A stretch of DNA of 48,585 nucleotides from a virus. Each line of letters starts with the position of its first letter. The first letter of the stretch is position 1. Below are positions 15,495 to 33,227 of the stretch, piece after piece. The translations under genes and the position numbers were made by a program. Where the stretch lies: IMG/VR virus record IMGVR_UViG_3300036892_000140, positions 1 through 48,585 of that record; one strand, given 5' to 3'. The notes under the pieces were generated by a model. That model was not told where the DNA came from. It saw nothing but the letters and a program-made list of their open reading frames with translations, and searched no databases.

Positions 15495-15561
15495 GGAATT
15501 CAGAAGTCAGAATTCAGAATTCTGGATTCGGAGCGAAGCGACATTCTGTATTCCAAAGGGG
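15495..15561. repeat. Composite heptamer element with hairpin core, copy d
   Basis: Forward CAGAATT units, then GAATTC-like reverse units, the core TCGGAGCGAAGCGACATTCTG, and a trailing ATTCC with AAAGGGG that is the likely ribosome-binding site of the coat gene. The core and trailing part match the element before 32956 almost base for base, and match those at 16494 and 28352 apart from a longer GC stem. Confidence 0.8.
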
Positions 15562-15569
15562 TTTGATCC

Positions 15570-16487
15570 ATGGAAGTCACTGGGAACTTTTCAGATTTCT
15601 ACGGCACGTCGATGCTGCCGGCGCTACGCGCGGTGATCGACCGCGGCTACAAACAGCGGCCGCAGCAGTTCTCGCAGATCTTCAACGTGCTGACGTCCAC
15701 CCGCTCGATCGAGCAGTTCTCGCAGGTGTCGGGCGTGGGGCGCTTCCTTCAGATTCCCCAAGGCGAGCCGGTGCGGCGCGACATGCCGGTGCAGGGCTTC
15801 AATTCCACCTTCAGCCACGTGCGCTATGGCCTGGCCGTTCCGGTCACCATCGATGTGGTGGAAGACGACAAGTGGGACCTGATCGGCAACATGCACAAGG
15901 ATCTGGGCTGGTCGTGTTCGGAGACCCAGGAGTTGGACGCGGTCGGCACGTTCAATAACGGCTTCAGCGGCTCCTATCTGGGGCCGGATGGCGTGGCGCT
16001 GTTCTCCGCCTCGCATCCGCTGTACAAAGTCGGCGGCGTGCAGTCGAACCTGATGACGGCGGCGGATCTGGATATGCTGAGCTTCCAGCTGGCGCTGACC
16101 CAGTTCGAAATGCAGGTGCGGCCCTCGGGCGAATTGATTCACGTGGCGCCGAGTAAGCTGATCGTGCACCCGTCGAACCGCTGGCTCTCCTATGCGCTGA
16201 CGAAATCGGGCGACGATCCGACCACCTCGGACCGTTCGGTGAACCCGTTGAAAGGCGGCGAAGACGGCATTCCAACGCCCTTCGTATGGCGTTATCTCTC
16301 GGCGCCGAACGCGTGGTTCCTGGCTGCGGTGCCGAGCGAAACCGGCCTGGTGTGGTTCTTCCGCAAGAAGCCCTACACCAAGAGCTGGACCGATGACGAC
16401 ACCGAAGTGGGTGTGACCGGCATGCGCTACAAGAAGAGCCACGGCTGGAACAACTACATCGGGCTGATTGGGAACGCGGGGCAGTGA
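15570..16487 (+). CDS. Major capsid protein (Mu gpT-like)
   Basis: A 305-aa protein that forms the capsid shell. Its order of features is typical of Mu gpT-type coat proteins: an N-terminal arm, the block around residues 40-75 (FSQIFNVLTSTRSIEQFSQVSGVG), a VPVTIDVVEDDKW strand, LFSASHPL, a central FEMQVRPSGELIHVAPSKLIVHPS segment and a C-terminal KKSHGWNNYIG strand. Its position after the scaffold and decoration genes agrees. The start is supported by AAAGGGG 7 nt upstream, inside a repeat element. Confidence 0.85.
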   Translation: MEVTGNFSDFYGTSMLPALRAVIDRGYKQRPQQFSQIFNVLTSTRSIEQFSQVSGVGRFLQIPQGEPVRRDMPVQGFNSTFSHVRYGLAVPVTIDVVEDDKWDLIGNMHKDLGWSCSETQELDAVGTFNNGFSGSYLGPDGVALFSASHPLYKVGGVQSNLMTAADLDMLSFQLALTQFEMQVRPSGELIHVAPSKLIVHPSNRWLSYALTKSGDDPTTSDRSVNPLKGGEDGIPTPFVWRYLSAPNAWFLAAVPSETGLVWFFRKKPYTKSWTDDDTEVGVTGMRYKKSHGWNNYIGLIGNAGQ

Positions 16488-16493
16488 GGGGGA

Positions 16494-16557
16494 AGAAGTC
16501 AGAATGTCGCGCCTACGGGCGCTCCGAATTCAGAATTCAGAATTCTGACTTCTGGAT
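16494..16557. repeat. Composite heptamer element with hairpin core, copy e (reverse)
   Basis: Outer perfect 12-bp inverted repeat (16494-16505 with 16542-16553). Inside it lies the reverse complement of the core, in which a 5-bp stem GCGCC/GGCGC closes a TACG tetraloop (16509-16522). Forward heptamers follow. It ends 16 nt before the next start codon. Confidence 0.85.
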
Positions 16558-16573
16558 TCTTTAGGGGGGTTCG

Positions 16574-17143
16574 ATGCCAAAGGTTGAGGGCGGCGGAACG
16601 GTTTACACGGGCGGACCGGGCTCGGCGCATCGCGGGCCGCTGTACGTCAAGTGCCCTCCTCTGCCGGGCCAGCCGGCGGGCTCGTTCACCTACCAGCAGT
16701 ACATGGACGCGGCCGGAAGCTGGGCGCTGCAAATTGCCCAGGTGACGATCCCCACGGCCTCGGTGTTGACGCTGCATAGCGTTCCGGTGAACCTCAGCTT
16801 ACTCAACGCGGTGTTTGGGGCGCCTGGGGCCGGCTATGCAATCGTTCTCGATTTCCTCACCGCCGAGTTGGTCTATAATTCGGCCACCTACGCGGCCGGT
16901 GGGGCGCTGACGATCACCTATGGATCGGGCGGCGGCGTGGCGCACGCGACCGCGATTCCCGTAGGCCTGGTGACGGCGACCGCGACGGAGGTGTTCTTCT
17001 CGCCCGGCGGCATGACCGGGGCGCAGGCTGCCTCGGCGGTGTTGAACGAAGCGCTGTGGATCCAGGCGGCGACCCAGGATTTTACCACCGGCAATAGCCC
17101 GCTGGTCCTGAACATTGGTTACCGCATTATCGGCGGATTCTAG
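16574..17143 (+). CDS. Hypothetical virion-region protein, 189 aa
   Basis: Beta-rich, Gly/Ala/Thr-rich protein with no charged helices, typical of head or tail surface proteins. No family is recognised. It starts 5-10 nt after a G6 tract that serves as its ribosome-binding site. It lies in a run of structural genes downstream of the coat. Confidence 0.6.
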   Translation: MPKVEGGGTVYTGGPGSAHRGPLYVKCPPLPGQPAGSFTYQQYMDAAGSWALQIAQVTIPTASVLTLHSVPVNLSLLNAVFGAPGAGYAIVLDFLTAELVYNSATYAAGGALTITYGSGGGVAHATAIPVGLVTATATEVFFSPGGMTGAQAASAVLNEALWIQAATQDFTTGNSPLVLNIGYRIIGGF

Positions 17144-17149
17144 CCCGCG

Positions 17150-17542
17150 ATGCCACAACAGAATTTCCCCTACAGCTTCCCGCAGGCCACCATCGCGAAC
17201 GGCGCGGCGGTCAGTAACATCGTTCAGATCGGGGTGGGGGTGCTGGTTGGGATGATCATCCCAGCGGTGTGGACGACGGCGGTGATTACTTTTCTCGCGA
17301 GCGTCGACGGCGTCAACTTCTTCGAAATGTATAGCGCCGCGGGCCAGTTGATCCAAGTGACGCCGTCGCCGACCGTGAGCACCTACGTCGCGATCGGCGA
17401 GGACTCCGACATTAAATTCGAGCACTTCCGCGGGGTGATATACCTGCAGCTGCAATCCGGCACGTCGGCGAGCCAAGTGAACCAGGCCCAGGCCAGCGTG
17501 GTTACGCTGGTAGTCGACAAATCCATCGCGGGGGCCTTCTAG
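17150..17542 (+). CDS. Hypothetical virion-region protein, 130 aa
   Basis: Beta-sandwich-like sequence with alternating hydrophobics (VSNIVQIGVGVLVGMIIPAVW is hydrophobic, but the rest is beta). The pattern SVDGVNFFEMY resembles small phage proteins whose strands hold an expected value plus noise-type domain. Probable decoration or tail protein; not otherwise recognised. Confidence 0.55.
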   Translation: MPQQNFPYSFPQATIANGAAVSNIVQIGVGVLVGMIIPAVWTTAVITFLASVDGVNFFEMYSAAGQLIQVTPSPTVSTYVAIGEDSDIKFEHFRGVIYLQLQSGTSASQVNQAQASVVTLVVDKSIAGAF

Positions 17543-17543
17543 T

Positions 17544-18044
17544 GTGCGGACGCGGTGGTGTGTGTGTGGCGGCCTACTAGCGGTCGCTTTTCTCCTACTG
17601 CCCGAGCCGCATTTTGTCCTAGCCCAATTCAGACCTGGCACCAATACGCCCACCGGTCTGCCGCCCAGCGTTCCACAGAAAGGCCCAGCGTGGTATCCAG
17701 GGCGCATCGCCTTTATCGACGCGCAAGGGTTGCTGGATGGCATCACGGGGACGCTCACCAATTGCGTGCTGGTGGATGGCAGCTCGGCGCCGTGCAGCGC
17801 GGGGAGCCCCAGCAGCGGGCCATCGTTTTCTGACGCTGAAACGCCCAGCGGAACGGTGAACGGATCCAACACGGTGTTTACGCTGGCTAACGCTCCGAGT
17901 CCGGCGGCGAGCTTGGTTCTGGTGCTGAATACTGCGGTGCAGACCGCTGGTTCCGATTACTCGCTGTCGGGCGCCAGCATCACCTTCATCAACGGTGTGG
18001 TGCCACAGACGGGCGCGACGCTGCGGGCCTGGTATCGGCACTGA
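17544..18044 (+). CDS. Secreted fibre-like protein with signal peptide, 166 aa
   Basis: The N-terminus (residues 1-28) is a clear Sec signal: MRTRW, a hydrophobic core GGLLAVAFLLLP and a VLAQ cleavage site. A proline-rich linker follows, then a Cys pair (NCVLVDGSSAPC). The C-terminal beta domain (from residue 96) reads P-S-G-x-VNGSNTVFTL, DYSLSGASITF, G-A-T-LRAWY, a pattern common at the ends of phage fibres. It is similar in plan to the protein at 11248. GTG start. Export of a phage fibre-like protein is unusual. Confidence 0.65.
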   Translation: MRTRWCVCGGLLAVAFLLLPEPHFVLAQFRPGTNTPTGLPPSVPQKGPAWYPGRIAFIDAQGLLDGITGTLTNCVLVDGSSAPCSAGSPSSGPSFSDAETPSGTVNGSNTVFTLANAPSPAASLVLVLNTAVQTAGSDYSLSGASITFINGVVPQTGATLRAWYRH

Positions 18045-18049
18045 GGGAA

Positions 18050-18078
18050 GATGAGAATTCAGAATTCAGAATTCAGAA
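18050..18078. repeat. Heptamer repeat, CAGAATT family, copy f1
   Basis: Three to four forward units overlapping the start codon of the 422-aa fibre-like gene and translated RIQNSEFR. It faces a reverse array at 18108-18138, so the pair can fold into a long imperfect hairpin with a 30-nt loop. Confidence 0.85.
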
Positions 18079-19319
18079 TGGGGCGGCCCTCGAGCTGGTG
18101 TGTGGCCTTCTGGATTCTGGCTTCTGGATTCTCGCTTCCCGCTCAAACCCTCCTCAACCTGAAGACGCAGGCGGAGAACGTGGATTTCACGCTGATGTCG
18201 CCGACCAAACCGTTTCAAATGGGCGGGAGTCTGCCGGCGACGTGTCCGCAGGGCGCGATGTTCTTCAAAACGGGAGCGCCGAGCGGCCAGAATGTATATG
18301 GCTGTATATTGACCAACGTGTGGGCGCTGGAGGGCGGGAACGCGGGCGGCGGGGTATGGGGATCGATCACGGGCACGCTCGCGAGCCAGACGGACCTGGC
18401 GGCGGCGCTAGCGGGGTTGGTGAGCCTTACGGGGAGCTACGCTTCGCCCGGGTGGTTGACGGCGATCAATTGGGGGATTATAGCCGGTGCACCGTCTATA
18501 ACCGGGCTGACCGTGGTGACGGCGGTGGGGTCGCCTGGCAGCAACACCAACGTGGCGACGGAAGCGGCTGTGCGGTCAGCGATCACGGCGGCCGTGAGCG
18601 GCGTGACGGGGCCGGGAACGACAACCACGGGGTATCTGGCGGCCTGGGGGAACACGGCTGGCACGGCGCTGAGCGTGGGATTGGCGACCTCGGCCACGCC
18701 GGGCGCGAATACAGTTCCGCAGTCGGGAGCCGGGGGACTTCTAGCTGCAGGATGGCTTCCACCGCCCGGCGTGACCACGCTGGGCGGCGTGGAGTCCAAG
18801 GACTGCTCGAGCGGTGGCGAGGTGGTGCAGAAGATCAACACCGATGGCTCGGTCACCTGCGTGGGCTCGGGCGCCGGCACGACCATCACGATTCAGGTCA
18901 ATGGCATCGTGGCTGGGGCGGAGACCGCGCTCAATCTGATCCCTGGAACCGGGATCGGTTGGAACTGTGTGGACAACGTGGGCGTGGCCATCAACTGCAC
19001 GCCCTCCTACAACGGGGCGCTGATCCCGACGCACGACACCATCCACGCCAACGAGAGCTACTGCAAATCCAGCAACGGTACAGCGGGCTACACCTGCTCG
19101 ATGCCCAACAAGGCGCTCACCGCCTACCAGGAGGGTCAGATGTTTCTGCTGAATCCGGACACGACGTGCGCGACCACCTGCACGCTCAACATCGACACCA
19201 TCGGAGTGATCACCATCACGCGCAAAGACGGCCTGACCGCGCCAGGCGGCGCGCTGGTGGCCGGCCAGGCGCAGCCGATCTGGTTCGATGGGGCAATTTT
19301 CAGGTTGGTGAACGAATAG
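18051..19319 (+). CDS. Tail-fibre-like protein with repeat-encoded signal peptide
   Basis: A 422-aa protein. From the internal ATG at 18078 the N-terminus is a signal peptide (MGRPSSWCVA, core FWILASGFSL, cleavage near PAQ); the core is encoded by reverse heptamers. The WGSITGTLASQTDLAAAL block (about residue 105) is a common phage fibre motif preceding a shaft. The shaft (140-250) is Gly/Thr/Ala-rich. The C-terminal part contains several closely spaced Cys pairs and a GQMFLLNPDTTC block. Probable receptor-binding or surface protein; secretion is inferred from the signal and the cysteines. Confidence 0.7.
   Translation: MRIQNSEFRMGRPSSWCVAFWILASGFSLPAQTLLNLKTQAENVDFTLMSPTKPFQMGGSLPATCPQGAMFFKTGAPSGQNVYGCILTNVWALEGGNAGGGVWGSITGTLASQTDLAAALAGLVSLTGSYASPGWLTAINWGIIAGAPSITGLTVVTAVGSPGSNTNVATEAAVRSAITAAVSGVTGPGTTTTGYLAAWGNTAGTALSVGLATSATPGANTVPQSGAGGLLAAGWLPPPGVTTLGGVESKDCSSGGEVVQKINTDGSVTCVGSGAGTTITIQVNGIVAGAETALNLIPGTGIGWNCVDNVGVAINCTPSYNGALIPTHDTIHANESYCKSSNGTAGYTCSMPNKALTAYQEGQMFLLNPDTTCATTCTLNIDTIGVITITRKDGLTAPGGALVAGQAQPIWFDGAIFRLVNE
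18108..18138. repeat. Heptamer repeat, CAGAATT family, copy f2 (reverse)
   Basis: Four reverse units (TTCTGGA, TTCTGGC, TTCTGGA, TTCTCGC) in the coding sequence of the fibre-like protein. In this frame they read FWILASGFSL, the hydrophobic core of the predicted signal peptide. Confidence 0.85.
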
Positions 19320-19320
19320 G

Positions 19321-19354
19321 AAGAAGCCAGGAGTCAGAATCCAGAATTCAGAAT
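19321..19354. repeat. Heptamer repeat, CAGAATT family, copy g
   Basis: About four forward units (AGCCAGG, AGTCAGA, ATCCAGA, ATTCAGA) filling the whole gap between two genes; the last unit runs into the ATG at 19353. No separate ribosome-binding site is visible apart from the AGGAG contained in the array. Confidence 0.8.
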
Positions 19355-20534
19355 GGCTACCTACGGACAGATTCGCTTAAGGCTTTCCAAGCTCGCCGCG
19401 GGCGTCGATCGCGAGCTGATCGACGGCTGGATTCAAGACCGCTATACCCAGATCCTCGACCGGCTGCCGTGGAAGCGCCTGGAGGGCGAGACGGTGATCC
19501 AGTCGCCGCCGAGCTACCAGGTGGGCACGGTCACGGCGACGCAGGGGTCGAACGCGATCGTGGGTGTGGGAACAGCGTGGACCCAGGCCATGAACGGGCT
19601 CATGATCCGCATTGCCAACGACCAGGAGTTTTATGTCTTCACGTACGTGGACGCGACCGACGCTACTCTCGACCGGCCCTATGAGGCCCAGACCGATTCG
19701 ATTTCGGCCTCGGCGATCGCCACGGCCGGCGCCGGCTACCAGGTGGGGGATCTGTTCTGGATCGCGAATCCGGACGGTCTGGGCGCGTCGGGGATCATCC
19801 AGAGCGCGGTCGCGGGCGCGGTAACCGGCTACAGCATCACTAGTCCAGGGAACGCGTTTAGCGTGGCATCGGGCGTGGCGACCACCACCAGCGGCGCGGG
19901 CTCGGGGTTCACCCTGAACATTTTGACGGTGGGGATTTCCTCGGGCCTGGCGTATCGCATCGACCAGAACATCTTCACGCTGCCCTACGATTGCCGGGTG
20001 CTGCGGGCGGTGCGGCGCTTCCATCCACCGGGCGAGTTGAAAGTGATCTCGCCGGGAGAACTCAACCGCATCGCGCCGGGGCGCCTGGTCTATGGGACGC
20101 CGCGCTATGCGGTGCAGACTTGGGATGCGGACACAAGTCCGCCGCTGATGCAGCTGGAGCTGTCTCCGATTCCCGCGAGCCCGGATTCACTCGGCAACAC
20201 GCTGTCGTTCGCGGTGGATTACATCTACGACCAGCCGGACCTGGTGGCGTCCAACACCAGCTTTAGCCTGTTGCCGTGGGCGCGGCCGGCGGCGTTGATC
20301 AAAGGCGTGCAGGCCGACATCGCGGAGTGGCAGGAGAAACTCACGCTGGCCGAGGCGCGCGAGGCCGCGTTTGAAAAGCTGGTCAAGCAGATGGCGATGA
20401 TTAACGCGTTACAGCGCGGGCCACAGGCGCTACGGCTAGCGCCGGAGCTGCGGGGGCGCGGGACGCCGGTGGGCTATCACCGGGCGAAGCACGCGGACCG
20501 GGACTATTTTGGCGAGGACGAGTACGATGCCTAG
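19353..20534 (+). CDS. Head-tail adaptor-like protein with inserted beta module
   Basis: A 393-aa protein. The N-terminal helical part (residues 1-50, ending LPWKRLEG) and the C-terminal part (from about 205: YRIDQNIFTLPYDCRVLRAVR, then a helix-rich end) resemble podovirus head-completion or tail-adaptor proteins. Inserted between them (about 55-205) is a beta-rich segment with the pattern GTVTATQGSNAIVGVGTAWTQAM that recurs in the 1352-aa hub protein. Position after capsid genes agrees. It would join portal and tail. Confidence 0.6.
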   Translation: MATYGQIRLRLSKLAAGVDRELIDGWIQDRYTQILDRLPWKRLEGETVIQSPPSYQVGTVTATQGSNAIVGVGTAWTQAMNGLMIRIANDQEFYVFTYVDATDATLDRPYEAQTDSISASAIATAGAGYQVGDLFWIANPDGLGASGIIQSAVAGAVTGYSITSPGNAFSVASGVATTTSGAGSGFTLNILTVGISSGLAYRIDQNIFTLPYDCRVLRAVRRFHPPGELKVISPGELNRIAPGRLVYGTPRYAVQTWDADTSPPLMQLELSPIPASPDSLGNTLSFAVDYIYDQPDLVASNTSFSLLPWARPAALIKGVQADIAEWQEKLTLAEAREAAFEKLVKQMAMINALQRGPQALRLAPELRGRGTPVGYHRAKHADRDYFGEDEYDA

Positions 20535-20820
20535 CACCTCCGGTTGGTACGCAAGGAACGCGGATAAAATTCTAGCGCGGCTCCGGGAGCGATATGCCGC
20601 GGAGCATCCCGTCCCGAGTCGCCGCGGTGGGCCGCGCGGCCCGCGCAGATCGCGTGAGGATGCGCTGAAGGCCAAGGCCGAGCAAATGCGCGATAGGCTG
20701 GAGAAGCGGCGCGCGAAAGCTCTGGCGCCCAAGAAAGCCGACGACCGGGAGCATGTTCGGGCACTGGGGCGCGCGCGCCAGGCGCGAGTGCGGGCGAAGC
20801 GGAGGGCGGCCGCCGCGTGA
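20527..20820 (+). CDS. Small very basic protein, 97 aa
   Basis: About a third of the residues are Arg or Lys, arranged in helical stretches (residues 43-95). This is reminiscent of DNA-condensing or ribosomal-like proteins. ATG at 20527 overlaps the upstream stop by 8 nt; the stop overlaps the next GTG start. DNA binding is likely from composition. The tight overlaps suggest it is expressed. Confidence 0.5.
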   Translation: MPSTSGWYARNADKILARLRERYAAEHPVPSRRGGPRGPRRSREDALKAKAEQMRDRLEKRRAKALAPKKADDREHVRALGRARQARVRAKRRAAAA

Positions 20821-21518
20821 CAGCTTCTGACATGCAGGACCGGTTGCTGGAGCGCCTCGGCGACAGCGCCTCTGGCGAATACGTCCAGGTCGGCTACTAC
20901 ACGCCCACCGAGGCCCTCAACTGGCTGAACGCCGCCCAGCGCATCTTCGTGCTTCTGACGCTATGCCTGGAGAATACCCAGGTCTTTGAGCTGGCGGCGA
21001 ACCAAACGTTTTACAGCATGCTGAATCAGTACGCCGATTGGATGCTGCCGCTGCGCGTCCGCATTGCCGGCGGCGCGCATCTGCGGCCGGCGCGGTTAAG
21101 CGACATGGCGGCGTACGACGCGAGTTGGAGCGTGAGTCCGGGCGTGCCCGCGCGCTACGCGCTGGTGGGATTCGATCTGTTCGCGATTTACCAGCAGCCT
21201 CTCGCGCTGACCTCGATCGACATCACCTACGCCTGCTGCCCGCCCACGCTGGTGAATCCGGGCGATGTGCCGGCGATTCCGGCCGAGTACCATCCGGTGC
21301 TGATCGACGGGGCAATTCCATTGTGTCGGGCGAAAGAAGGCGGCGGGGAGTTCCAGAAGGTGCTGCCGCACTGGGATGTGTTCATGGACGCGGCCGGGAA
21401 GCTGGGGGAGTATGTGAGGGCGCGGAACCAGGAGCAGGGGTACGACCGGATGCCGGCGGAATTGAAGCGGTTCGATCGCTCGAAACTGCTGATGCAGAAA
21501 GTGGGGAAGGTTGCCTGA
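20817..21518 (+). CDS. Head-tail adaptor-like protein 2
   Basis: A 233-aa protein starting with GTG. The plan matches the other adaptor-like proteins in this block: N-terminal helices (YTPTEALNWLNAAQRIFVLLT), a beta sandwich (residues 55-155, including LRPARLSDMAAYDASW) and C-terminal helices. Such proteins contact the portal or tail. Three adaptor-like genes within 4.5 kb suggest a multi-ring connector. Assigned by pattern. Confidence 0.55.
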   Translation: MTASDMQDRLLERLGDSASGEYVQVGYYTPTEALNWLNAAQRIFVLLTLCLENTQVFELAANQTFYSMLNQYADWMLPLRVRIAGGAHLRPARLSDMAAYDASWSVSPGVPARYALVGFDLFAIYQQPLALTSIDITYACCPPTLVNPGDVPAIPAEYHPVLIDGAIPLCRAKEGGGEFQKVLPHWDVFMDAAGKLGEYVRARNQEQGYDRMPAELKRFDRSKLLMQKVGKVA

Positions 21519-21519
21519 G

Positions 21520-21717
21520 ATGAGCATGCCTAACATCACGCGGGAACAGGTGGAGGAGCGCGGTCACGACCTTGCGCGGCAGCTAGCGGCGGCGCGGAAG
21601 CAGATCGCCGACGGCGAGGCCACCGCCCACGCCATCGACGGCGCGATCCAGGAGAACCGCTATTACCTGAAGCTGATCGCCGAACAGGAGCAGGCGCAGG
21701 CGGCGCTCAATGCCTAA
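21520..21717 (+). CDS. Short coiled-coil protein, 65 aa
   Basis: Almost wholly alpha-helical (EQVEERGHDLARQLAAARKQIADGEATAHAIDGAIQENRYYLKLI), with a heptad pattern compatible with a trimeric or dimeric coil. It starts 1 nt after the upstream stop and overlaps the downstream start by 8 nt. Possible chaperone, needle or linker. Confidence 0.6.
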   Translation: MSMPNITREQVEERGHDLARQLAAARKQIADGEATAHAIDGAIQENRYYLKLIAEQEQAQAALNA

Positions 21718-23083: not shown

Positions 23084-23092
23084 CGGGGTTAG

Positions 23093-23758
23093 ATGCTCGC
23101 TCTCTTACTTGCTCCGCAACCGCCTCCGCCCTCCGCCGAGTTCATCAACATGGCGCTGGTCGCCAATGACCTCTACAGCGCCCTCAACGCCGCTGGTCCG
23201 GGCGACCTGGTCTTCTGGACGCAAGCCGAGCTCTACCTCTACATCGATGAGGCGGCGCAGCGCCTCGCGCGGACCTGCGGGGTGTGGGTGGAGCGCGATA
23301 CGACCACGATTACCGAGGCAGGCGAAGGCGTGTACGCGCTCCCGCCGGCGCAGGTGTCGACGGTGCAGGCGGACTTGAATGGCCTGGTGTTGCAGCCGCG
23401 CACCGTGGCTGAGTTGGAGGCGCTGGACGCCAGCTGGCCGCTGACAGAGGGACCGCCGGTGGCCTTCGTCCAGAACCTCCAGGGGCTTGCGCAAATCGTG
23501 TTGTATCCGGCGCCGGACGACAACAATGGCGGCTTGTCCGTAGGCTTGATCCTGCGCGAGTTCCCGATCGCGCCGACGGCGAGCAATCCGTTCCTGGCGG
23601 CGCCGACGTGCGTGCGGGAGTACTTCACGTTTCGGGCGTTGGAGGCGGCGCGCGGGAAGCAATCGAAGGCGGAGATGCCGGACGTGGCGGCGTGGATAGG
23701 GAAGACCGCGGGGATGCTGGAGCAGGTCATGACGGAACTCTGGGGGACCGCTCAGTGA
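23093..23758 (+). CDS. Head-tail adaptor-like protein 3
   Basis: A 221-aa protein with N-terminal helices (residues 17-55), a beta region containing YALPPAQVSTVQADLNG and LVLQPRTVAELEALDASWP, and a C-terminal helix bundle (REYFTFRALEAARGKQSKAEMPDVAAWIGKTAGMLEQVMTEL). This is the usual order in podovirus adaptor or gp6-type proteins. The start TTG/ATG near 23093 is uncertain; an internal ATG at 23150 (MALVAND) is also plausible. Its last 14 codons are duplicated at 23889-23933. Confidence 0.6.
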   Translation: MLALLLAPQPPPPSAEFINMALVANDLYSALNAAGPGDLVFWTQAELYLYIDEAAQRLARTCGVWVERDTTTITEAGEGVYALPPAQVSTVQADLNGLVLQPRTVAELEALDASWPLTEGPPVAFVQNLQGLAQIVLYPAPDDNNGGLSVGLILREFPIAPTASNPFLAAPTCVREYFTFRALEAARGKQSKAEMPDVAAWIGKTAGMLEQVMTELWGTAQ

Positions 23759-23904: not shown

Positions 23905-23933
23905 TGACAGAGCTGTGGGGACAAGCCCAATGA
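23889..23933 (+). pseudogene. Remnant copy of the adaptor gene 3' end
   Basis: In frame this reads RILEQVMTELWGQAQ followed by TGA, against MLEQVMTELWGTAQ plus TGA at the end of the preceding 221-aa gene, with many third-position changes. No upstream open frame belongs to it; a stop interrupts the frame about 35 nt earlier. It is best explained as the leftover tail of a second, diverged adaptor gene. Confidence 0.55.
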
Positions 23934-24296: not shown

Positions 24297-27200
24297 CCGC
24301 ACCGATAAGCAGCCCATCGTTCCCGGCGCGCTGAACCTGCTGACGCCCGGAGACAAGATCCCGGCGGGCGGTTCGCTGCTGCTCGACAACTGGCGCGTAG
24401 ACCAGTTCGGCCAGCTCCGCTCGCGCCTGGGCACCAGCATCCAAGCAGCCCAGATCGGTTCGGGTGTCTTCCATACCATTGCGCGCGCGGCCGGTGATCG
24501 CTACTGCGGCGTCGGGAACGCCCTCTACTGGGGCGACAATGCGCAGACCGAAGTCGCTTCCGGCTTTGACGGCAATCCGCTGGGCATTGTGTTCTATGAC
24601 CAGGCCGGCTGGGTCATGAACACCGCCAAGCAGTTGCGCCTGGGATTGAACGGAGCGGGTTCGACGCCCTGGGGCGTGGGGGCGCCGGCCACGGCGCCGA
24701 CCGCTACCGCGGGCGCGCAGCAGTACAGCGTCGTCGAGGGGTTCGAACAATCCAGCCAACCGGCGGCGGGCATCGACGTGGGCTATTACGACTCCGTTGG
24801 TATCTTCCACGACGAGCCCACCAGCACCACGGTCCTCACAAGCGCTGGGACGATCGCGGTGACAAACGGTTCGGCGGCGATCGTGGGCACGGGGACGGCT
24901 TTTACGCAGGCCATGGTGGGGGCTGAAATTGAGATCACGGGCACGCTGAACGGTGTCAGCGGTTACTGGCTCGCGCCGATTGCTTCGGTCACGGATGCCA
25001 CGCACGCTAGCCTCGCACCTATCATCTGGGACTGGGACACTGCGAGCGGGTTGAGCTTCCAGATCACTACCCAGGTGCCGGCGGCCTCGGCCGACACCAC
25101 CAATTTCCAACAGGTCGGCGATGTGACGGCCAGCCTGCAGGTGAACGCCTCGGTCGTCGGGACCTGGGCGGTGACCGATGACCTCCTGACGTCGCGCGGG
25201 GGCGCGATCGACACCACCACCGAGGGCGTGGCGCAAGATGACGACGTCTTCCGCCTGTGGGTGTACTGTTCCAATCCGGCGGCGGTGGCCTCGTTCGCGG
25301 TGGTGCTGCTGTCGGGCTCGAGCGACACGGCCGGTCTGTCGGCGTATGTGACGATGCCCGGCAGTGTTCTCAACCAAACCCCGAACAGTTGGACGCTGCT
25401 GCAGATCCTGCGAAATATCAATCTGGATTCCTGGAATGCGGCGATCAACGCGATCGGGACGGTGCCGGTCTCCCCTGGCTTTCCGGAGGTGCAATCGGCG
25501 AATCCGGCGGAGCTGGCGGCGCTGATCGCGTCCTTCAGCCAGCGCACCGAGGCGCCGCATTTTACCGAAGTCGAGGGCGGCAAGATCTATACCGGCATGA
25601 CGGTCGAGATCGGCGGCAACCAGGAAGGTGGATCCGGCTACACGAATAACGGGCAGGTGACGGCCATCAATTGGAGTGCTATCTCGGGCCTGCAGGTGCT
25701 GGTGAATCTCACGGCGCCGTGCGTGTTCAACCTGGACAACTCCTACTTCGTGGGCACCGTGCAGGGAGTGCTGACGGGCACTGGAAACTACTTTGTGAGC
25801 TACGCGAACCAGTGGGACGAGGACGGGGATCTGTCGCCCATGTCGAACACGGTGACGTGCGTGGGCCAGAGCGTGGAGCTGACCAATATTCCGGTGTCGC
25901 CGGATCCCCAGGTGACGCAGCGCTGGATCTGGCGGGTTGGTTTCGGTTCGTCGCAGGCGCTGCAGGTGGGCCAGATCAATGACAACGTGACGACCTTCTT
26001 CGTCGATGCGATGTCGGTGGTGGCGGCGCAGGACGAGGGGCTAGTCGCGCCGACCGCGCGGACACAACCTCCGCCCGCCGCGGGCGTGATGGGGCCGTAT
26101 CTTTCCCAGCTGATGGCGTGGAACTGGCCCGGCCATCCATGCCGATATGGCTGGACTGAGCCTGGAATTCCGTGGGCATTTCCAGGCTGGGACGACGTAA
26201 ATGGTAACTGGGAGGATGCCGGCTCGGATGACGACCCGCTGTTGATGATCACAAATCACCAGCTGATGGCGCTGTTTTATAAGACCAGGTCGCTTGGCAG
26301 ATTGTATGGAAGTCCGGACACGGCTGACTATCAGGAAGTGGATCAAACGTGCGGCCTGGTGGGGCCGAAAGCCGTGGTCAATGGCGGCCAGGTGGACTAC
26401 TTCATGGGCCCGGAGGGGATTTACTACCGGAATTATGACTCAAAGGTGAAGATCTCCACCGATATCGACCCGATTTTCAAGGGCGATTACGTGCAATTGT
26501 CGACTGGTGAGTTCATTCCTCCCATCAGTAAAACCTGGATCGGGCTGAGCGTCCTCGAGCTCTGCAACGACCGGCTGTATGTGAGCTATGTGGAAGAGGG
26601 CGCGAGCCTGCCCACAATGACGCTGATCTGCCAGCTGCCCGGGCAGACCGCCATCACCGATGTGCCGACCTATCGCTGGTCGCGGATGTACGTGAATCCG
26701 GCCGCGGTGGGGCAGGCCGGCAATGTGGGCTTCACCGCGCTGCACTATGACGGGAATCCGTACCGGCTGATGGGCGGAGTGACCGGTAACTGGGTCTCTG
26801 GCGACCTGGTCGAAAGCGGCGGCTACCTGCTGAACCTGGAGTTCGGCGACACCAACGATTCGGGCGAGACGGTGCACGTGGCCTGGCAGTCGCGGTTTTC
26901 AGATCAGGGGTTGCCTGACAACCTCAAGTATTATTCGGACCTCGAGCTGGATGCCCAGACCGCCTTCAACGGCGACGGACTGTCCACGCTGAGCGTGTAC
27001 ATCGTCTACAACCACTCGATCAAAGTGCTGCTGGGGACCTTCACTTCGGCGGTGCAGGACACGCAAAGCTTTCCGCTGATGGGGATCGTGGGGTCTGTGC
27101 AGCATCCGCAGGGCTACTCGCCGTACGACGATCTACTGGCGAAGAACGCGGCGATCCGGGTGGAAGGCGACATCGGCTCGACCTGCATCATCTACGGCGC

Positions 27201-28347
27201 CTACCTGCACTGGTATCCGCAGGAGCGCCTGGCGACGACCTTCGACAGCGGGTTCATTGATCTCGGGCTGCCGGAGCGGGTGAAGCAGGCCGATTACCTG
27301 GAGTTCGTCGCGACCGGGATCGGGCAGCAGGTGACGCGGGCGCTCTACTCTGACCTCCCAGGGTCTGTGCTGACAGAACAGGCTAGCCTGCCGGTGACGC
27401 TGCCGAACGGGAGGGGAAACGTGCGCGCACGGCTGCCGGCGATCCTGGAAGGACGCAACCTGCGGGTGATGCTGTCGAACCCGCTCGGCTCACAGGCGTT
27501 TCAGATCCACGCAGCGCGCTTGCGCCAGCGGGTGATTGGCGAGTACATCGACGGGACGATCGGCGAGTACTTCGAGTCGCCCGAGTTCAGCGTGGCGCCG
27601 GGGCGAGACGGGGAGCTGAAGGATCTGCTGCTGGACTACGACTCGGAGACGCCTGGCGGGCAGTTGGTGCTGTACGCGGACTCCAATCCGCCGGAGGCTG
27701 GGCCGCCGGCGCTGACCGTGGCCCGCACGCTCCAGATTCCGACGGGCACGCGGCGCACATTCAGTTTTCCGTTCGAGGACTTGAGTAACAACCTGCCGTA
27801 CGGGACGTTGTTCAAGATCCGCGTGATTCCGCCCGCCGGGGGGATCATCCGGCTGCACGGGCGGGCGACCATCCGGGCGCGCATCATCGGCGTGTGCTTC
27901 GACGGCGCGGCGGGAGAGATATGGCTTACCCAACCGTTAGATCTATTTGGTGGCATTGGCGTCTTCCGCGAGATTGCGGTGGTGGCACAGACGCTCGGTC
28001 CTATGACCCTTACGATGTCCACGGAACTGCCGGGCGCGGTGATGGCGCCGGTCGCGAGCTTTCCTGTGAACTCGACCAATGCGACGAGTCGCCTGCCGGT
28101 GTACGCGCGGCTGCCGGGGACGACGAAGGGGCAGCTGCAGCAATTTCAGCTGAGCGGGGCTTATTGGGCGCGGCTGTTTGAAGTGAAGGTGCTGGGGCGC
28201 GGCCTGGGGAACAGCGAGACGGCGTGGCAATGGGTAAAGGTGCCGCTCGAGGAGACGAGCAACGAATGGCGCGAGATCAACATGCCGGTGCGGGCGACGC
28301 CGGAGGAGTTCACGTGGGTGGACCTGCCGGTGGACGCGATTGAGTAG
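24289..28347 (+). CDS. Large gp10-like tail hub protein with three C-terminal beta repeats
   Basis: A 1352-aa virion protein. The N-terminal block (LLLDNWRVDQFGQLRSRLGT, residues 27-46) and the later propeller-like strands (around 640-760, including YFMGPEGIYYRNYDSKVKISTDIDPIFKG) follow the pattern of P22 gp10-type packaged-DNA stabilising or tail-hub proteins. At this length it is nearly three times the size of P22 gp10. Residues 185-265 hold the beta module shared with the adaptor at 19353. From about 985 to 1310, three beta-sandwich-like units occur in tandem. It probably closes the portal and carries fibres; assigned by pattern and position. Confidence 0.6.
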   Translation: MASRTDKQPIVPGALNLLTPGDKIPAGGSLLLDNWRVDQFGQLRSRLGTSIQAAQIGSGVFHTIARAAGDRYCGVGNALYWGDNAQTEVASGFDGNPLGIVFYDQAGWVMNTAKQLRLGLNGAGSTPWGVGAPATAPTATAGAQQYSVVEGFEQSSQPAAGIDVGYYDSVGIFHDEPTSTTVLTSAGTIAVTNGSAAIVGTGTAFTQAMVGAEIEITGTLNGVSGYWLAPIASVTDATHASLAPIIWDWDTASGLSFQITTQVPAASADTTNFQQVGDVTASLQVNASVVGTWAVTDDLLTSRGGAIDTTTEGVAQDDDVFRLWVYCSNPAAVASFAVVLLSGSSDTAGLSAYVTMPGSVLNQTPNSWTLLQILRNINLDSWNAAINAIGTVPVSPGFPEVQSANPAELAALIASFSQRTEAPHFTEVEGGKIYTGMTVEIGGNQEGGSGYTNNGQVTAINWSAISGLQVLVNLTAPCVFNLDNSYFVGTVQGVLTGTGNYFVSYANQWDEDGDLSPMSNTVTCVGQSVELTNIPVSPDPQVTQRWIWRVGFGSSQALQVGQINDNVTTFFVDAMSVVAAQDEGLVAPTARTQPPPAAGVMGPYLSQLMAWNWPGHPCRYGWTEPGIPWAFPGWDDVNGNWEDAGSDDDPLLMITNHQLMALFYKTRSLGRLYGSPDTADYQEVDQTCGLVGPKAVVNGGQVDYFMGPEGIYYRNYDSKVKISTDIDPIFKGDYVQLSTGEFIPPISKTWIGLSVLELCNDRLYVSYVEEGASLPTMTLICQLPGQTAITDVPTYRWSRMYVNPAAVGQAGNVGFTALHYDGNPYRLMGGVTGNWVSGDLVESGGYLLNLEFGDTNDSGETVHVAWQSRFSDQGLPDNLKYYSDLELDAQTAFNGDGLSTLSVYIVYNHSIKVLLGTFTSAVQDTQSFPLMGIVGSVQHPQGYSPYDDLLAKNAAIRVEGDIGSTCIIYGAYLHWYPQERLATTFDSGFIDLGLPERVKQADYLEFVATGIGQQVTRALYSDLPGSVLTEQASLPVTLPNGRGNVRARLPAILEGRNLRVMLSNPLGSQAFQIHAARLRQRVIGEYIDGTIGEYFESPEFSVAPGRDGELKDLLLDYDSETPGGQLVLYADSNPPEAGPPALTVARTLQIPTGTRRTFSFPFEDLSNNLPYGTLFKIRVIPPAGGIIRLHGRATIRARIIGVCFDGAAGEIWLTQPLDLFGGIGVFREIAVVAQTLGPMTLTMSTELPGAVMAPVASFPVNSTNATSRLPVYARLPGTTKGQLQQFQLSGAYWARLFEVKVLGRGLGNSETAWQWVKVPLEETSNEWREINMPVRATPEEFTWVDLPVDAIE

Positions 28348-28351
28348 GGGA

Positions 28352-28425
28352 GGAATACAGAATACAGAATTCAGAATTCTGAATTCGGAGGGCCCCGGCA
28401 GGGGCTCGACATTCTAACTTCTTGC
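28352..28425. repeat. Composite heptamer element with hairpin core, copy h
   Basis: Forward units (AATACAG, AATTCAG), a GAATTC palindrome, then the core TCGGAG, stem GCCCC (28392-28396), GGCA loop, GGGGC (28401-28405) and CGACATTCTAACTTC. The stem differs in sequence from that of copy e but keeps pairing. It ends 1-2 nt before the ATG at 28427. Confidence 0.85.
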
Positions 28426-28426
28426 C

Positions 28427-29056
28427 ATGCCCGCCGCCACGTCCACGGTCCAGTTCCTCGACATCCCAGCCGGGGTGACTGGCGACGCGCTGATCGCGCT
28501 GGTCAATGACCGGCTGCGCGCCATCACGCAAGCGCTGAACACAGCGACGCCTATGCCGGCGATCGCCAGCGACCTCAACATGAACGGCTACCGCGTTGTG
28601 GTGCTCGGCAACGCCGTGAACCCCCAGGACGCGCTCAATATGGCGACCGGGGACAAGCGCTACGCGACCAGCGCGGCCATCGCGAAAGCGGTGGCCACCG
28701 CCGCTGCGGTGCCGGCCGCCGGAGGCGGCGCTAGCTCTAGCGTCAGTGTACTGATCTTAACCGTGCCGGGAACGCTCGCGATCGAGGCGAGCGCGACGGC
28801 GCTGGTTATCTTCTCGACGGCACAGAGTTGGACGAAGGTGAATCTGCTGGTGGAGCAGGCGCCGACCGATGGCGCGATCACGATCTCCGCAAAGGCCGGA
28901 ACGAAGATCCTGGGGACGGCGACGATCGCGGCCGGCGCGGTGGCTGGGAGTGCCACGATCAGCTGGACGCTGCCGGCGAACACGGTGCTGAGCGTGGATG
29001 TGACGACGGTGGGCTTGGACAATCCGGGGAGCGGGTTGAGCATCCTGCTCAGCTGA
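28427..29056 (+). CDS. Tail-fibre-like protein, 209 aa
   Basis: The stretch ASDLNMNGYRVVVLGNAVNPQDALNMATGDKRYA (about residues 46-80) is the common attachment and shaft-start motif of phage fibres. After a Gly/Ala-rich hinge, the C-terminal 100 residues are a beta domain (VLILTVPGTLAIEASATALVIFSTAQ) that could bind a receptor or another fibre. No signal peptide. It lies downstream of the hub gene. Confidence 0.65.
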   Translation: MPAATSTVQFLDIPAGVTGDALIALVNDRLRAITQALNTATPMPAIASDLNMNGYRVVVLGNAVNPQDALNMATGDKRYATSAAIAKAVATAAAVPAAGGGASSSVSVLILTVPGTLAIEASATALVIFSTAQSWTKVNLLVEQAPTDGAITISAKAGTKILGTATIAAGAVAGSATISWTLPANTVLSVDVTTVGLDNPGSGLSILLS

Positions 29057-29058
29057 GC

Positions 29059-29090
29059 GGTTGGTTTTCCTGGTTGCTCGTTGTTGGTGA
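29059..29090. repeat. Heptamer repeat, ACCAACA family, copy 3 (reverse)
   Basis: Read on the - strand this is ACCAACA, ACGAGCA, ACCAGGA, AAACCAACC. It fills the region just after the fibre gene stop and before the terminator at 29132, the third site of this family in the window. Confidence 0.65.
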
Positions 29091-29131
29091 AGAGCACCCA
29101 GGGGCAATGTATGAGGCGAGAGAGCGTGATC

Positions 29132-29182
29132 CGACCCGGGCCGCGTGTTTCTTTTCCTTTCTGACGGCCCGGGTCGCTTTTT
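29132..29182 (+). terminator. Rho-independent terminator-like hairpin
   Basis: A 12-bp perfect GC-rich stem (CGACCCGGGCCG at 29132-29143 pairing with 29165-29176), a 21-nt pyrimidine-rich loop and a CTTTTT tract (29177-29182). It lies between the fibre gene and the 913-aa receptor gene, whose GTG start is only 7 nt beyond. It may therefore attenuate rather than end transcription. Confidence 0.65.
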
Positions 29183-29188
29183 CCGCGC

Positions 29189-31930
29189 GTGTCCACGACA
29201 CTCCAGAAGTTAGATCCCCGCTACACCGTGCACCTGCGCGGCGTCGACGCGTTTGGCGCCATGGCTGCGATCACCGGCGCCAGCGAATCGGGCTTCACGG
29301 TCTCTGGCGTCTTTCGCGACGCCGCCGACTTCGCGGTGCTGTATCTGTACGACGCCGACGATTACTTTGGCCACCCCCGGCTCAAGTACCTGCCAGACTT
29401 CGACCTGAGTGGCCTGGTGCTCAGCTTCGATGTGACCTACACCGGGTTGCAGCCGCTGGATTCCGACAGTTTTCCGACAATCGATTGGCCGTATCTTGAC
29501 GCAATTTTGTCAGACGGATCGACCGCCCAGGTCTCGCTGTTTGCCAATGCCACTCAGGTCGGCGGCAACTACGTGGCGGCGCAAACGGTGCTGGAGCTCA
29601 CGGCGGGGCCAGCGGTGGCCTTCGACCGGGTGACCATCTGGTATCAGAACTACGCCTACGACTACATCGCGGCCGGCGGCGAGACCGCGGCGGCGGTGGC
29701 GGCGCTCCTGGCTGGCTACATCAACGCGACTGCCTGGGATGGCGCGCACGCGATCTCAGCGGTAGCCAGCGGTGCGACGATCACGGTGACCTCGGAGAAG
29801 GCCGGGACGGACGGCAACTTCATCACCCTCTATTCGGAATCGAAAACTTCCACTCTCACCGTAAACCCGGCGGTGGCGCCGCTGACGGGCGGCAATTCGA
29901 GTGCCACGTGGAACATTCAGCTGGATTTCACTTCCTTGGGGTTGACCAGCGTGCGGCAGTTGTGGCTGACGTTCGCGCCGGCGCTCGCGATCGCGGCGGC
30001 GTACGAGTCGACCGAGTGGACGGCAGTCTTTACGAACTGGTCGCTGACCGGCGCGGGGAGCAAGACGCTCCAGGTGGCTGGGCCCGGCAGCGTGCGGGTG
30101 GAGGATTCAAGCGCATGGTGCACATATACGGGTTCGTCCTGGTCGGTGGTGGATACGTCGGTCGGGAACTGGTCACGAGGTTTTGCCCATCAAGTCACCA
30201 ACCCAGGCGACTCGGTGACGGTTGCCTGCTACTGCCAAAGCGCCCACGACCTATACCTGGGGACGGCGCTGGAGTTCGGCTACGGAACGTTTTACATGAC
30301 CGTCGACGGCGGCCCCGCAGTGACCCTGTCCTGCGCGCTGGGATCTGGCGACGACCAGGTGATCGGGAGACGCCTGATCGCCGCCGGACTCACCTCCGGC
30401 AAGCACACCGTCGTGATCACGCTGGCGAGTGGAACGCTGGGGTATTTTGACTTCATCGAGGCCGCGGTGCTGTCGAATGTCCCCGCGCCGCCTGGTCCCT
30501 GGACCGGTAGGTCCCCGGCGTCCGATTACGACACCGACCACGGCTACAAGGTGTCTCCGACACGTTTGCTGTGGATGTTGACCAACCTGGGTTATTCGAC
30601 GGCCGAGCTGAACCTGTACATGGGCGTCTTCTGGTGGATGCAAAAAACCGGCACGGGCGGAGTCGTCCCCTTCGTGACCATCGATTTCTCGCAGACCACG
30701 TACCTCTCGGGCGACAGCGTCTTCCTGGTGCTCTCGGGCGAGGCCTTCGGCAAGACCGTGTTCCCGATCGAAGCCGGCTCGCCGGCTCTCATTGCGAACC
30801 ACTTTGCGTATTACCTCAACGAAGTGGCGGCTGGGACCTACGCGACCGTCGCTGGCTCGGTGCTGACGATCACGCTGCGCGCGGTGGGATCGAGCTACAA
30901 CTTCACTTTCTCCGCGTACAAGAACACAACGGTCACGCCGCTGACCTACACGGGCTCGCTGGAGGGTGGCACGATCGCGACGTGGGCGCTGGATCCGACG
31001 CAGACGCCGGTGATCAACGCCGCGGCATCGGCCTGGATGGCGGACCTGTTCACCCGCTCGAAGGCGGCCGGCATCAACGTGGTGGTGAGCTACTCGATGG
31101 AGCTGTGCTTCCCGCCGGCGGCGTGGGTGTCGCTGTTCCCGGACGGGAGGCCGGTGACGACGGCAACCGGGTTTGGAACCATCAACTCGAGCCAGTGCGT
31201 TCCTTCGAATTCGGCGTTTCTGGCGTACCAGCAGAAGGTGTTTCTCGCGACGGCGGCGCTCCAGACGGCGGCGGGGTTGCCGGTAATCTTGCAGTGCGGC
31301 GAGCATCTATGGTGGTACTTCCCGAACGCTTCCGGCATGGCTTACTACGACGCAGTCACAGCCGCAGCGGCCCAATCAACCCTTGGAAGGGCGCTGCACA
31401 CGTTCCTGACGCCCAACGATTCGCCCGCGGTGAACGGCTACGCGGACGCCGAGTTCCTCCGGGGGCGCCTGCAGGCGCACGTGGCGGCGATCGCGGCGGC
31501 GGTGCAAGCCGAGTTTCCAAGCGCCGAGTTCGAAGTCCTCTACCCTTACGACGTGAACTATCCGACGCCGGCCGGCGCGGATCTGGTCGGCGGGGCGCTG
31601 AACTATTTCGTGAATACGCCGCTCACCTGGCAGAAGCCGGGGACGCTCCAGCGCATCAAGATCGAGGCGCTGGACCGCGAGGTGTCGAGCCACAATCTGA
31701 CGCTCGCGATTCAGGCGATGCAGTTGCCGCTGGGCTGGGGCTGGCCGCCTGGCTTGGTGCGCTACCTGATCGGCGTGTACACGGGCGGGGCGACTTGGGA
31801 GCGCAGCCTTCTGGCGGCGGAGGCCGCGGGCGTGGCCGAGGTGATCCTGTTCGCGCTCGATCACGTGTGCCTGTTCGGGTGGGAGCTGGGGGATCCGGTG
31901 ATCGCGCCTTCGGCGCAGCTCGTGAGCTAA
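29189..31930 (+). CDS. Large tail protein with TIM-barrel hydrolase-like C-terminal half
   Basis: A 913-aa protein. The N-terminal half (1-430) is beta-rich, with DAADFAVLYLYDADDYFGHPRLKYLPDFDLSGLVLSFD and strands resembling carbohydrate-binding or fibre domains. The C-terminal half (about 450-905) alternates helices and strands like a TIM barrel. Two acidic residues sit at strand ends with aromatic neighbours, E638 in SYSMELCFPP and E705 in QCGEHLWWYF, as in glycoside hydrolases. A depolymerase or receptor-binding role is inferred. The GTG start at 29189 has no obvious ribosome-binding site; the next internal ATG is far inside the first domain. Confidence 0.55.
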   Translation: MSTTLQKLDPRYTVHLRGVDAFGAMAAITGASESGFTVSGVFRDAADFAVLYLYDADDYFGHPRLKYLPDFDLSGLVLSFDVTYTGLQPLDSDSFPTIDWPYLDAILSDGSTAQVSLFANATQVGGNYVAAQTVLELTAGPAVAFDRVTIWYQNYAYDYIAAGGETAAAVAALLAGYINATAWDGAHAISAVASGATITVTSEKAGTDGNFITLYSESKTSTLTVNPAVAPLTGGNSSATWNIQLDFTSLGLTSVRQLWLTFAPALAIAAAYESTEWTAVFTNWSLTGAGSKTLQVAGPGSVRVEDSSAWCTYTGSSWSVVDTSVGNWSRGFAHQVTNPGDSVTVACYCQSAHDLYLGTALEFGYGTFYMTVDGGPAVTLSCALGSGDDQVIGRRLIAAGLTSGKHTVVITLASGTLGYFDFIEAAVLSNVPAPPGPWTGRSPASDYDTDHGYKVSPTRLLWMLTNLGYSTAELNLYMGVFWWMQKTGTGGVVPFVTIDFSQTTYLSGDSVFLVLSGEAFGKTVFPIEAGSPALIANHFAYYLNEVAAGTYATVAGSVLTITLRAVGSSYNFTFSAYKNTTVTPLTYTGSLEGGTIATWALDPTQTPVINAAASAWMADLFTRSKAAGINVVVSYSMELCFPPAAWVSLFPDGRPVTTATGFGTINSSQCVPSNSAFLAYQQKVFLATAALQTAAGLPVILQCGEHLWWYFPNASGMAYYDAVTAAAAQSTLGRALHTFLTPNDSPAVNGYADAEFLRGRLQAHVAAIAAAVQAEFPSAEFEVLYPYDVNYPTPAGADLVGGALNYFVNTPLTWQKPGTLQRIKIEALDREVSSHNLTLAIQAMQLPLGWGWPPGLVRYLIGVYTGGATWERSLLAAEAAGVAEVILFALDHVCLFGWELGDPVIAPSAQLVS

Positions 31931-31986
31931 GAGGGAGGTGGGTGGGCCGTGGGAAAAGCTTTTCCTACCACCCACCGCCCACAACC
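31931..31986. repeat. GGGTGGT-family hairpin repeat directly after a stop codon, copy 2
   Basis: Begins on the base after the TAA of the 913-aa gene. The outer stem GGTGGGTGG (31937-31945) pairs with CCACCCACC (31968-31976), and the inner perfect palindrome GGAAAAGCTTTTCC spans 31952-31965. The right half (CTTTTCCTAC-x-ACCCACC) matches the element at 14749. Confidence 0.7.
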
Positions 31987-32006
31987 TGCTTGGGCAATTG
32001 AGTGTT

Positions 32007-32399
32007 ATGAACCTAGAGGCTATCCTGCTGTTGTTGCAGACCGCGCTGCCGCCGCTGATCAACCTGGCGGAGTCTATTTTCTCGAAGCATGGATCCGGCG
32101 CTACGAAAAAGGCGGTGGTGACCGCCCAGGCGCAGGCCATTATCCGGCCAACCGTGGCGGCGTCGCAAAGCATCGGGCAGACCGGCTGGATTCCTGTGCC
32201 GGATGAGTTCGTTGGCGGGGTGATCGAAGAGATGCTGGCGGCGATGAAGGCGTCGGGCGCGATCACCGCTCCACCGCTGCCCGCGGGGCTAGTCCCTCCG
32301 GTGGTAACAATGGATGCCGCGAATCCGGCGGCGCTGTCGAAGCTGAAGACGGGCGTGACGTTCGAGGGAGGCGGCTCCTCGCCGGGGACGCCGCGGTAA
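32007..32399 (+). CDS. Hypothetical protein, 130 aa
   Basis: Starts MNLEAILLLLQTALPPLINLAESIFSK, a hydrophobic helix that could insert in membranes or pack as an amphipathic helix. The rest is polar with a Pro-rich C-terminus. ATG 32007 is chosen because the upstream part of the frame is only repeat sequence. It may be a minor virion or lysis-related protein; no family is recognised. Confidence 0.5.
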   Translation: MNLEAILLLLQTALPPLINLAESIFSKHGSGATKKAVVTAQAQAIIRPTVAASQSIGQTGWIPVPDEFVGGVIEEMLAAMKASGAITAPPLPAGLVPPVVTMDAANPAALSKLKTGVTFEGGGSSPGTPR

Positions 32400-33227
32400 A
32401 TGGTCACCATTGCATCGCCGTTTCCGCGCTACGCCCTGCCCCGGTTGTGGCGGTGGGCGGACGCTAGCTGGCGGCAGGTGGCCGATGATTTCGCGCCACG
32501 CACGCTGGACGAGTTCGTGAGCTACTGGGAAACCAAGGAGTGCGCCGGCATGCGCAGTTGGGAGGTGATCCGCGATGGGGAAATGGGCGGCGTGGTCACG
32601 TCGCTGCGGTTGAATCCGGTCTTGGCGGACGCGCACTGTATTTTCAAGAAGTCGTTTTGGGGACATGAGACCACGGCCGAGGCGCTGCGATTGGTGTTCG
32701 AGCAGCTGTTCGCCGATGGAGTGCTGAAAATCGAGACGAAGTGTTTCCACGATAACCACGCGCTGCTGGGGCTAGTCGGCAAGCTGGGATTTGAGCGCGA
32801 GGGTACGCGGAAGCAGAGCACGCTGCGCGGCGGGAAGCTGGTGGACCGGGCGGCGGTCGGTTTGACGAAGGAAAACTGGGAGAGAATCCAGAAGTCAGAA
32901 TTCGGAATTCTGAATTCGGAGCGCAGCGACATTCTGGATTCAAAAGGGGCTTCACATGAGCTTTCTAATGGGCGGCGGGAGCAATTCGTCGACGACCAGC
33001 GGCAAAACCGCGTCCACCACGTCGGGAACCTCGACCAGCACGCAAAACCTGACGCCGGGGCAAACGTCGCTAGCGAACCCGCTGTACACCATGCTGCAGC
33101 AGATGATGACGCCGGCCGGCGCCCAGGCGACGGTAGCTCCGTACACGGCCGCGTCGATGGACGCGACGAACTCGACTTACAGCGGGCTGGCGAACACGCT
33201 GCGCAGCCAGTTCCTATCGACCGGTAA
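32400..33227 (+). CDS. GNAT-family acetyltransferase with a read-through C-terminus
   Basis: Residues 1-160 follow the GNAT plan: beta strands with GGVVTSLRLNPV, then a helix (ETTAEALRLVFEQLFADG), IETKCFHDNHALLGLVGKLGFEREGT and a final strand. Such proteins acetylate amines; phage copies near tail genes are often called host-specificity acetyltransferases. After KENWE (about residue 160) the frame enters a heptamer element, then runs about 90 codons out of frame over the next gene, which is unlikely to be the original C-terminus. The functional protein probably ends near 32880. Confidence 0.7.
   Translation: MVTIASPFPRYALPRLWRWADASWRQVADDFAPRTLDEFVSYWETKECAGMRSWEVIRDGEMGGVVTSLRLNPVLADAHCIFKKSFWGHETTAEALRLVFEQLFADGVLKIETKCFHDNHALLGLVGKLGFEREGTRKQSTLRGGKLVDRAAVGLTKENWERIQKSEFGILNSERSDILDSKGASHELSNGRREQFVDDQRQNRVHHVGNLDQHAKPDAGANVASEPAVHHAAADDDAGRRPGDGSSVHGRVDGRDELDLQRAGEHAAQPVPIDR
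32882..32949. repeat. Composite heptamer element with hairpin core, copy i
   Basis: Forward and reverse units, the core TCGGAGCGCAGCGACATTCTG, GATTC and AAAAGGGG, which is the ribosome-binding site of the next gene. It is nearly identical to the element before the coat gene. It lies inside the open frame of the GNAT gene and appears to have replaced its stop. Confidence 0.85.

Follow-up and report, generated by a model that had tools for sequence, protein, structure and literature searches.

Related short repeats in bacteria and phages

Small dispersed repeats (SDR), said to have been described in Nostoc punctiforme by Elhai et al. in 2008, are reportedly very small, form hairpins, often lie within tandem heptamers, carry compensatory changes and are thought to be mobile. 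In build, these SDR within tandem heptamers of Nostoc appear to be the closest counterpart of the elements presented here. REP and REPIN palindromes are short, extragenic and tagged with GTAG or CGTC (PMC3116915, PMC3733652); the first of these two papers also cites Elhai et al. Heptamer repeats of the unit TAACTGA are found in Beggiatoaceae and Cyanobacteria, and for this unit it has been stated that intergenic heptamers are scattered across distant bacterial phyla by a transfer route that is not evident (PMC4679880). In phages, Cluster K mycobacteriophages possess 13-bp start-associated repeats (SAS), about half of which are accompanied by a 17-bp inverted repeat (ESAS) (PMC3203893).

Here, four composite elements are described that resemble the tiny repeats, dispersed or mobile, known from bacteria. 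The window, that is, the whole stretch of DNA that was analysed, is a virus record of 48,585 bases (64% GC) coding for terminase, portal, major capsid protein (15570-16487) and tail proteins, with a tyrosine integrase gene at the right end that makes a temperate life style likely. As in the SDR of Nostoc, small hairpin repeats are embedded in tandem heptamers; in contrast, the phage elements reside in a 64% GC genome, are present in four copies only, and their mobility is deduced from element-free joints. With REP and REPIN sequences they share short palindromes between genes, in both orientations, and variable stems in which pairing is kept, but they have heptamer flanks, neither GTAG nor CGTC was recognised by eye in the core letters, and the window holds no RAYT/Y1 transposase. 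The likeness to the TAACTGA repeats lies in intergenic tandem heptamers near starts that occur sporadically across phyla, whereas TAACTGA is another unit, lacks a G+C hairpin core and is found outside phage.

Sequence and layout of the elements

In their common orientation, the elements consist of a left arm of 7-nt units, a switch point at which the units reverse and so form a perfect hairpin, the block TTCGGAG, a G+C core whose length varies, CGACATTCT and, on the right, one further heptamer (Table 1). The left arm is almost letter-identical across the four copies, the reversal point included. The pattern ATTCGGAG-N2-20-CGACATTCT has exactly four matches in the window (15526, 16501 on the minus strand, 28383 and 32914), with 0 expected and 0 in 100 shuffles. 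An earlier note on this DNA had listed the four elements with the copy at 16494 inverted, the common blocks GAATTC, TCGGAG and CGACATTCT, the core stems GCGCC/GGCGC and GCCCC/GGGGC with their 4-nt loops, and an AAAGGGG common to the copies at 15495 and 32882; all of these are present as listed. The latter two copies are ~90% alike, AAAGGGG included, and a Shine-Dalgarno-like tract is absent between the element at 28352 and the ATG. At 45-49%, the GC content of the four elements lies well below the 64% of the genome. No clear target-site duplication was found at the four copies; AGGGG flanks two of them but is not separable from the purine tracts that are expected before starts.

Table 1. Composite elements and heptamer arrays in the window.
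Feature	Position	Strand	Context
Composite element 1	15495..15561	+	Upstream of major capsid gene 15570; heptamers on the left, a palindrome of heptamers, GGAGCGAAGCGACA as short core, a heptamer on the right, AAAGGGG
Composite element 2	16494..16563	-	Inverted; upstream of ORF 16574; core stem GCGCC/GGCGC 16509-16522; 12 bp outer stem
Composite element 3	28352..28421	+	Upstream of ORF 28427; core stem GCCCC/GGGGC 28392-28405; outer stem mostly lost
Composite element 4	32880..32949 (copy 32882)	+	Between GNAT-like gene and ORF 32956; GGAGCGCAGCGACA as short core; outer stem of 10 bp; AAAGGGG
Heptamer array	11251..11277	+	Encodes N-terminus MRIQNSEFRM of ORF 11248
Heptamer array	13964..13996	+	N-terminal codons of ORF 13954
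Heptamer array	14898..14931	-	Immediately upstream of ORF 14944
Heptamer array	18054..18079	+	Encodes MRIQNSEFRM of ORF 18051
Second heptamer array	18108..18138	-	N-terminal codons of ORF 18051
Heptamer array	19326..19350	+	Adjoins ATG of ORF 19353, upstream side
Heptamer array	41615..41648	-	Upstream of ORF 41730
Heptamer array	42887..42916	+	C-terminal codons of AAA ORF 41730-42992
Heptamer array	42997..43022	+	N-terminal codons of Gp157-like ORF 42979
Heptamer array	44809..44838	-	Between ORFs 44217-44813 and 44850
Heptamer array	47274..47307	-	C-terminal codons of DUF5131 ORF 46367-47323

It had also been proposed that all four elements adjoin the starts of virion genes. A PHROG search bears this out for ORF 15570, the major capsid gene and the sole clear virion gene among the four; ORF 28427 has a weak tail-fibre match, and ORFs 16574 and 32956 have no PHROG match. 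The GNAT-like ORF (window positions 32400-33227) extends ~110 codons beyond its conserved domain and across the start of ORF 32956. A loss of this gene's stop codon through the insertion at 32882 was considered and rejected, since element-free relatives run on in the same frame and the overlap is therefore not caused by the element.

The four elements are the richest members of a larger set, ~15 arrays of a 7-nt unit, AGAA[T/G][T/C]C or its reverse (AGAATTC, with variants such as AGAATCC and AGAAGTC), so that the four leader repeats reported earlier are indeed present but form only part of it. Double units match 29 times in the window versus 0.14 expected. The arrays lie mostly at gene joints and some in coding ends; on an approximate gene list drawn from the ORF table, 12 of the 15 are at most 50 nt from a gene boundary, versus ~2.5 expected at random placement. 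Where arrays are translated, as in the Gp157-like, AAA and DUF5131 ORFs, the protein ends are encoded by heptamers. Two unrelated ORFs share the same heptamer-encoded start MRIQNSEFRM (11248-11280 and 18051-18080), and the second array of ORF 18051 falls within an apparent signal peptide (FWILASGF). Separately, the AAA ORF contains an exact 38-nt direct repeat (42239-42276 and 42557-42594, 318 nt apart).

Growth of the heptamers in place, by polymerase slippage from seeds resembling ribosome-binding sites and with a G+C core arising by chance, could be invoked for such arrays: heptamers are the commonest long simple repeat class in several bacteria, for which slippage has been proposed (Mrazek 2007, as relayed in PMC4679880), and a seed-like GGGAGGAATTCT is found at an element-free joint in the related contig L087. 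Slippage leaves unexplained, however, why TTCGGAG and CGACATTCT recur at four places, why one copy is inverted and why the orientation switches inside each array, and we regard it as quite improbable.

Folding and covariation

All four elements (66-70 nt) fold better than every one of 200 dinucleotide shuffles, with z scores of -3.9 to -4.9 as RNA and -4.6 to -6.4 as DNA, and the usual single-stranded fold is an outer heptamer stem enclosing the heptamer hairpin and the core. A long G+C core stem is formed in two of the four copies only, 16494 and 28352, while the cores GGAGCGAAGCGACA and GGAGCGCAGCGACA allow a core helix of 2-3 bp at most. The two long stems differ in length and sequence, and the 5' half of the 16494 core forms a slightly more stable pairing with the 28352 3' half (-10.9) than with its own 3' half (-10.1 kcal/mol). 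As the stems differ in length too, compensation by substitution is indistinguishable from the independent insertion of two palindromes. Chance is an unlikely origin of the hairpins, yet two sequences are insufficient to show compensation.

Within the heptamer helices, no compensatory pairs were found among the four aligned copies: the heptamer hairpin is invariant, and in the aligned register of the outer stem all variation consists of broken pairs. Covariation of this outer stem between copies was also considered and rejected, given the lack of compensatory pairs and the fact that the two outer arms of a copy show no preference for each other over the arms of other copies (8 of 24 permutations as good or better). 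The evidence for covariation is weak. The covarying stem put forward earlier is real to the extent that two copies have different paired stems, but these are two of four, unequal in length and without compensatory pairs in the heptamers around them.

Element-free joints in relatives

At the 15495 joint, seven related contigs (L038, L039, L040, L041, L043, L044 and L045, with L043 and L044 near-identical) have the capsid gene preceded by the same gene as in the window and no element between the two; the capsid protein of L038 is 86% identical to that of the window. L038 also has the two genes of the 16494 joint, with the next start shortly past the capsid stop and no element between them. At the 28352 joint, the genes overlap as ATGA in L087, versus 79 nt between them in the window. 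The element at 32882 is absent in L071, L072, L073 and L087, where the next gene starts right where the GNAT-like gene ends; L072 reads ACGAAAGAGGAGTTCGCACATG, versus ACGAAGGAAAACTGGGAGAG, the element and CTTCACATG in the window. The relatives at the 28352 and 32882 joints are distant (37-49% amino acid identity), so that loss in the relatives is less strictly excluded there, and these two joints weigh less than those beside the capsid gene. Nine relative records searched with the element yielded no match, against 15 places that a query of this type finds in the window itself. In another 25 loci of relatives, heptamer arrays of at least four units are absent. A very close relative of the phage was not found among the records searched. 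L041 and L044 have no comparable repeat family at gene joints; L044 carries tandem 18-nt repeats (TCAAAGCTGGCCGGGGGA and variants) at its contig end (1-126).

We regard this comparison as decisive: since the same gene joints are free of elements in relatives, the elements are taken to be lineage-specific insertions and not conserved late-leader devices, and insertion in the phage lineage is the simplest account. The earlier note preferred RNA structures in the leader, through which translation or processing of the downstream gene would be controlled, with selection for these structures at late genes, and held that loss of the elements at those genes in close relatives would speak against its reading. 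In line with this, each of the four elements lies directly before a start and folds better than shuffled sequences, AAAGGGG precedes the ATG in two copies, and in Beggiatoaceae a role as regulator sites has been proposed for heptamers that precede starts (PMC4679880). However, these genes lack the elements in relatives, even beside a capsid gene as similar as that of L038, one copy is inverted, the core stem and with it any covariation is limited to one hairpin in two copies, the heptamer helices are devoid of compensatory pairs and related arrays lie within coding ends. Selection for late-gene RNA control is thus not supported, and we consider control as the reason for these elements unlikely. 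Repeats of this type in phage leaders had further been called undescribed, which is too strong a statement given the Cluster K repeats. SAS and ESAS likewise lie directly before translation starts in a phage, about half of them with an inverted repeat and variable spacer; related phages keep them at the same genes, in the non-structural half of the genome (PMC3203893), whereas relatives of the present phage lack the elements, which here extend into the capsid region.

The joints also bear on whether the elements are boundary sequences, kept because they help phages to exchange modules through homologous recombination. The presence of 40-nt blocks that are almost identical from one gene joint to another would suit such a role, and the phage encodes Sak4-like AAA and Gp157-like proteins; yet the blocks are absent in relatives, which leaves no recombination partner, and the gene order of the capsid region is the same in relatives that lack them. 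We judge this role to be very improbable.

Mobile palindromes as the preferred explanation

The elements are multi-copy and structured, one copy is inverted, and all four joints are empty in relatives. From these sequence comparisons, we consider it probable that they are small dispersed palindromic repeats, flanked by heptamers and probably mobile, that were inserted into the phage lineage. The earlier note had named a mobile palindrome as an alternative, and this gains support from the element-free joints, the inverted copy and the sister arrays in coding ends. Also in its favour are the four near-identical left arms beside unrelated genes, the low GC content of the elements, the clustering of arrays near gene boundaries, the same heptamer variants in other replicons and the integrase gene. 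Filled and empty versions of the same sites point to recent mobility, with the movement itself deduced from them. A small palindromic unit may have been moved or copied, as DNA or via a structured single strand, into gene joints, which would be the places of least harm for an insertion in a packed genome. The heptamer family could have been acquired from the host or another replicon, easily so during a prophage state, and the integrase makes acquisition from the host likely. The copies at 15495 and 32882 may derive one from the other or from a common recent source, and the AAAGGGG common to both suggests that the copied unit can include a ribosome-binding site. Insertion would change the leader of the next gene, and any control of that gene would be a by-product and not the element's reason to exist. 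The mobile reading is weakened by the lack of a Y1/RAYT domain (PF01797) in the window, a domain that 5 of 14 control genomes have; a host-encoded copy is possible. It is weakened, too, by the lack of a clear target-site duplication and of an exact second copy of the full core in the public collections searched, and by the distance of the relatives at 28352 and 32882.

Whether these elements represent a new family of very small mobile palindromes in temperate phages, with a unit that passes between host, plasmid and phage and settles at gene joints, sometimes with its own ribosome-binding site, is more doubtful, and we offer it tentatively. If true, it would provide a path by which intergenic heptamers could have come to be scattered sporadically among distant phyla. 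An integrase-bearing phage with ~15 heptamer arrays, some of them around a hairpin, and with joints that relatives have without elements, offers a concrete vehicle and a datable set of insertions. The case also teaches that repeats at phage gene starts need checking in relatives before they are read as regulators.

Occurrence elsewhere

The full core has no second copy in 2.9 million IMG/VR contigs, in INPHARED or, at useful coverage, in PLSDB, and neither the exact short core nor the exact left arm occurs elsewhere in IMG/VR; a host family is thus only a candidate. The window gave no Rfam match above the gathering score and no hit in a tRNA scan. Two candidates were set aside: a loose core pattern in 26 IMG/VR contigs, none with flanking heptamers, is ascribed to chance, and a partial core match on a Nostoc plasmid (L064) covers 25 nt and lacks CGACATTCT. 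Heptamers alone, in the same variants, are found on plasmids of Nostoc and other Nostocales, in a Desulfonatronum MAG, in a Fibrobacter MAG and in one other high-GC virus record. Probing GTDB contigs with 22 nt likewise recovered heptamers without the core only, in the Fibrobacter and Desulfonatronum MAGs. Within the class of Desulfonatronum, 2 of 199 genomes have heptamer matches, and their spread is therefore sporadic. On two plasmids of Nostoc sp. C052 (L048 and L049), an imperfect hairpin around GGGGATTCAGACCC comes after heptamers of the same variants. In the other high-GC virus record (IMGVR_UViG_3300036987_000359, 1180-1560), G+C hairpins (GCGGCGCAACGCGCCGCG) come immediately after GAATTC heptamers and form with them an analogous composite whose core differs.
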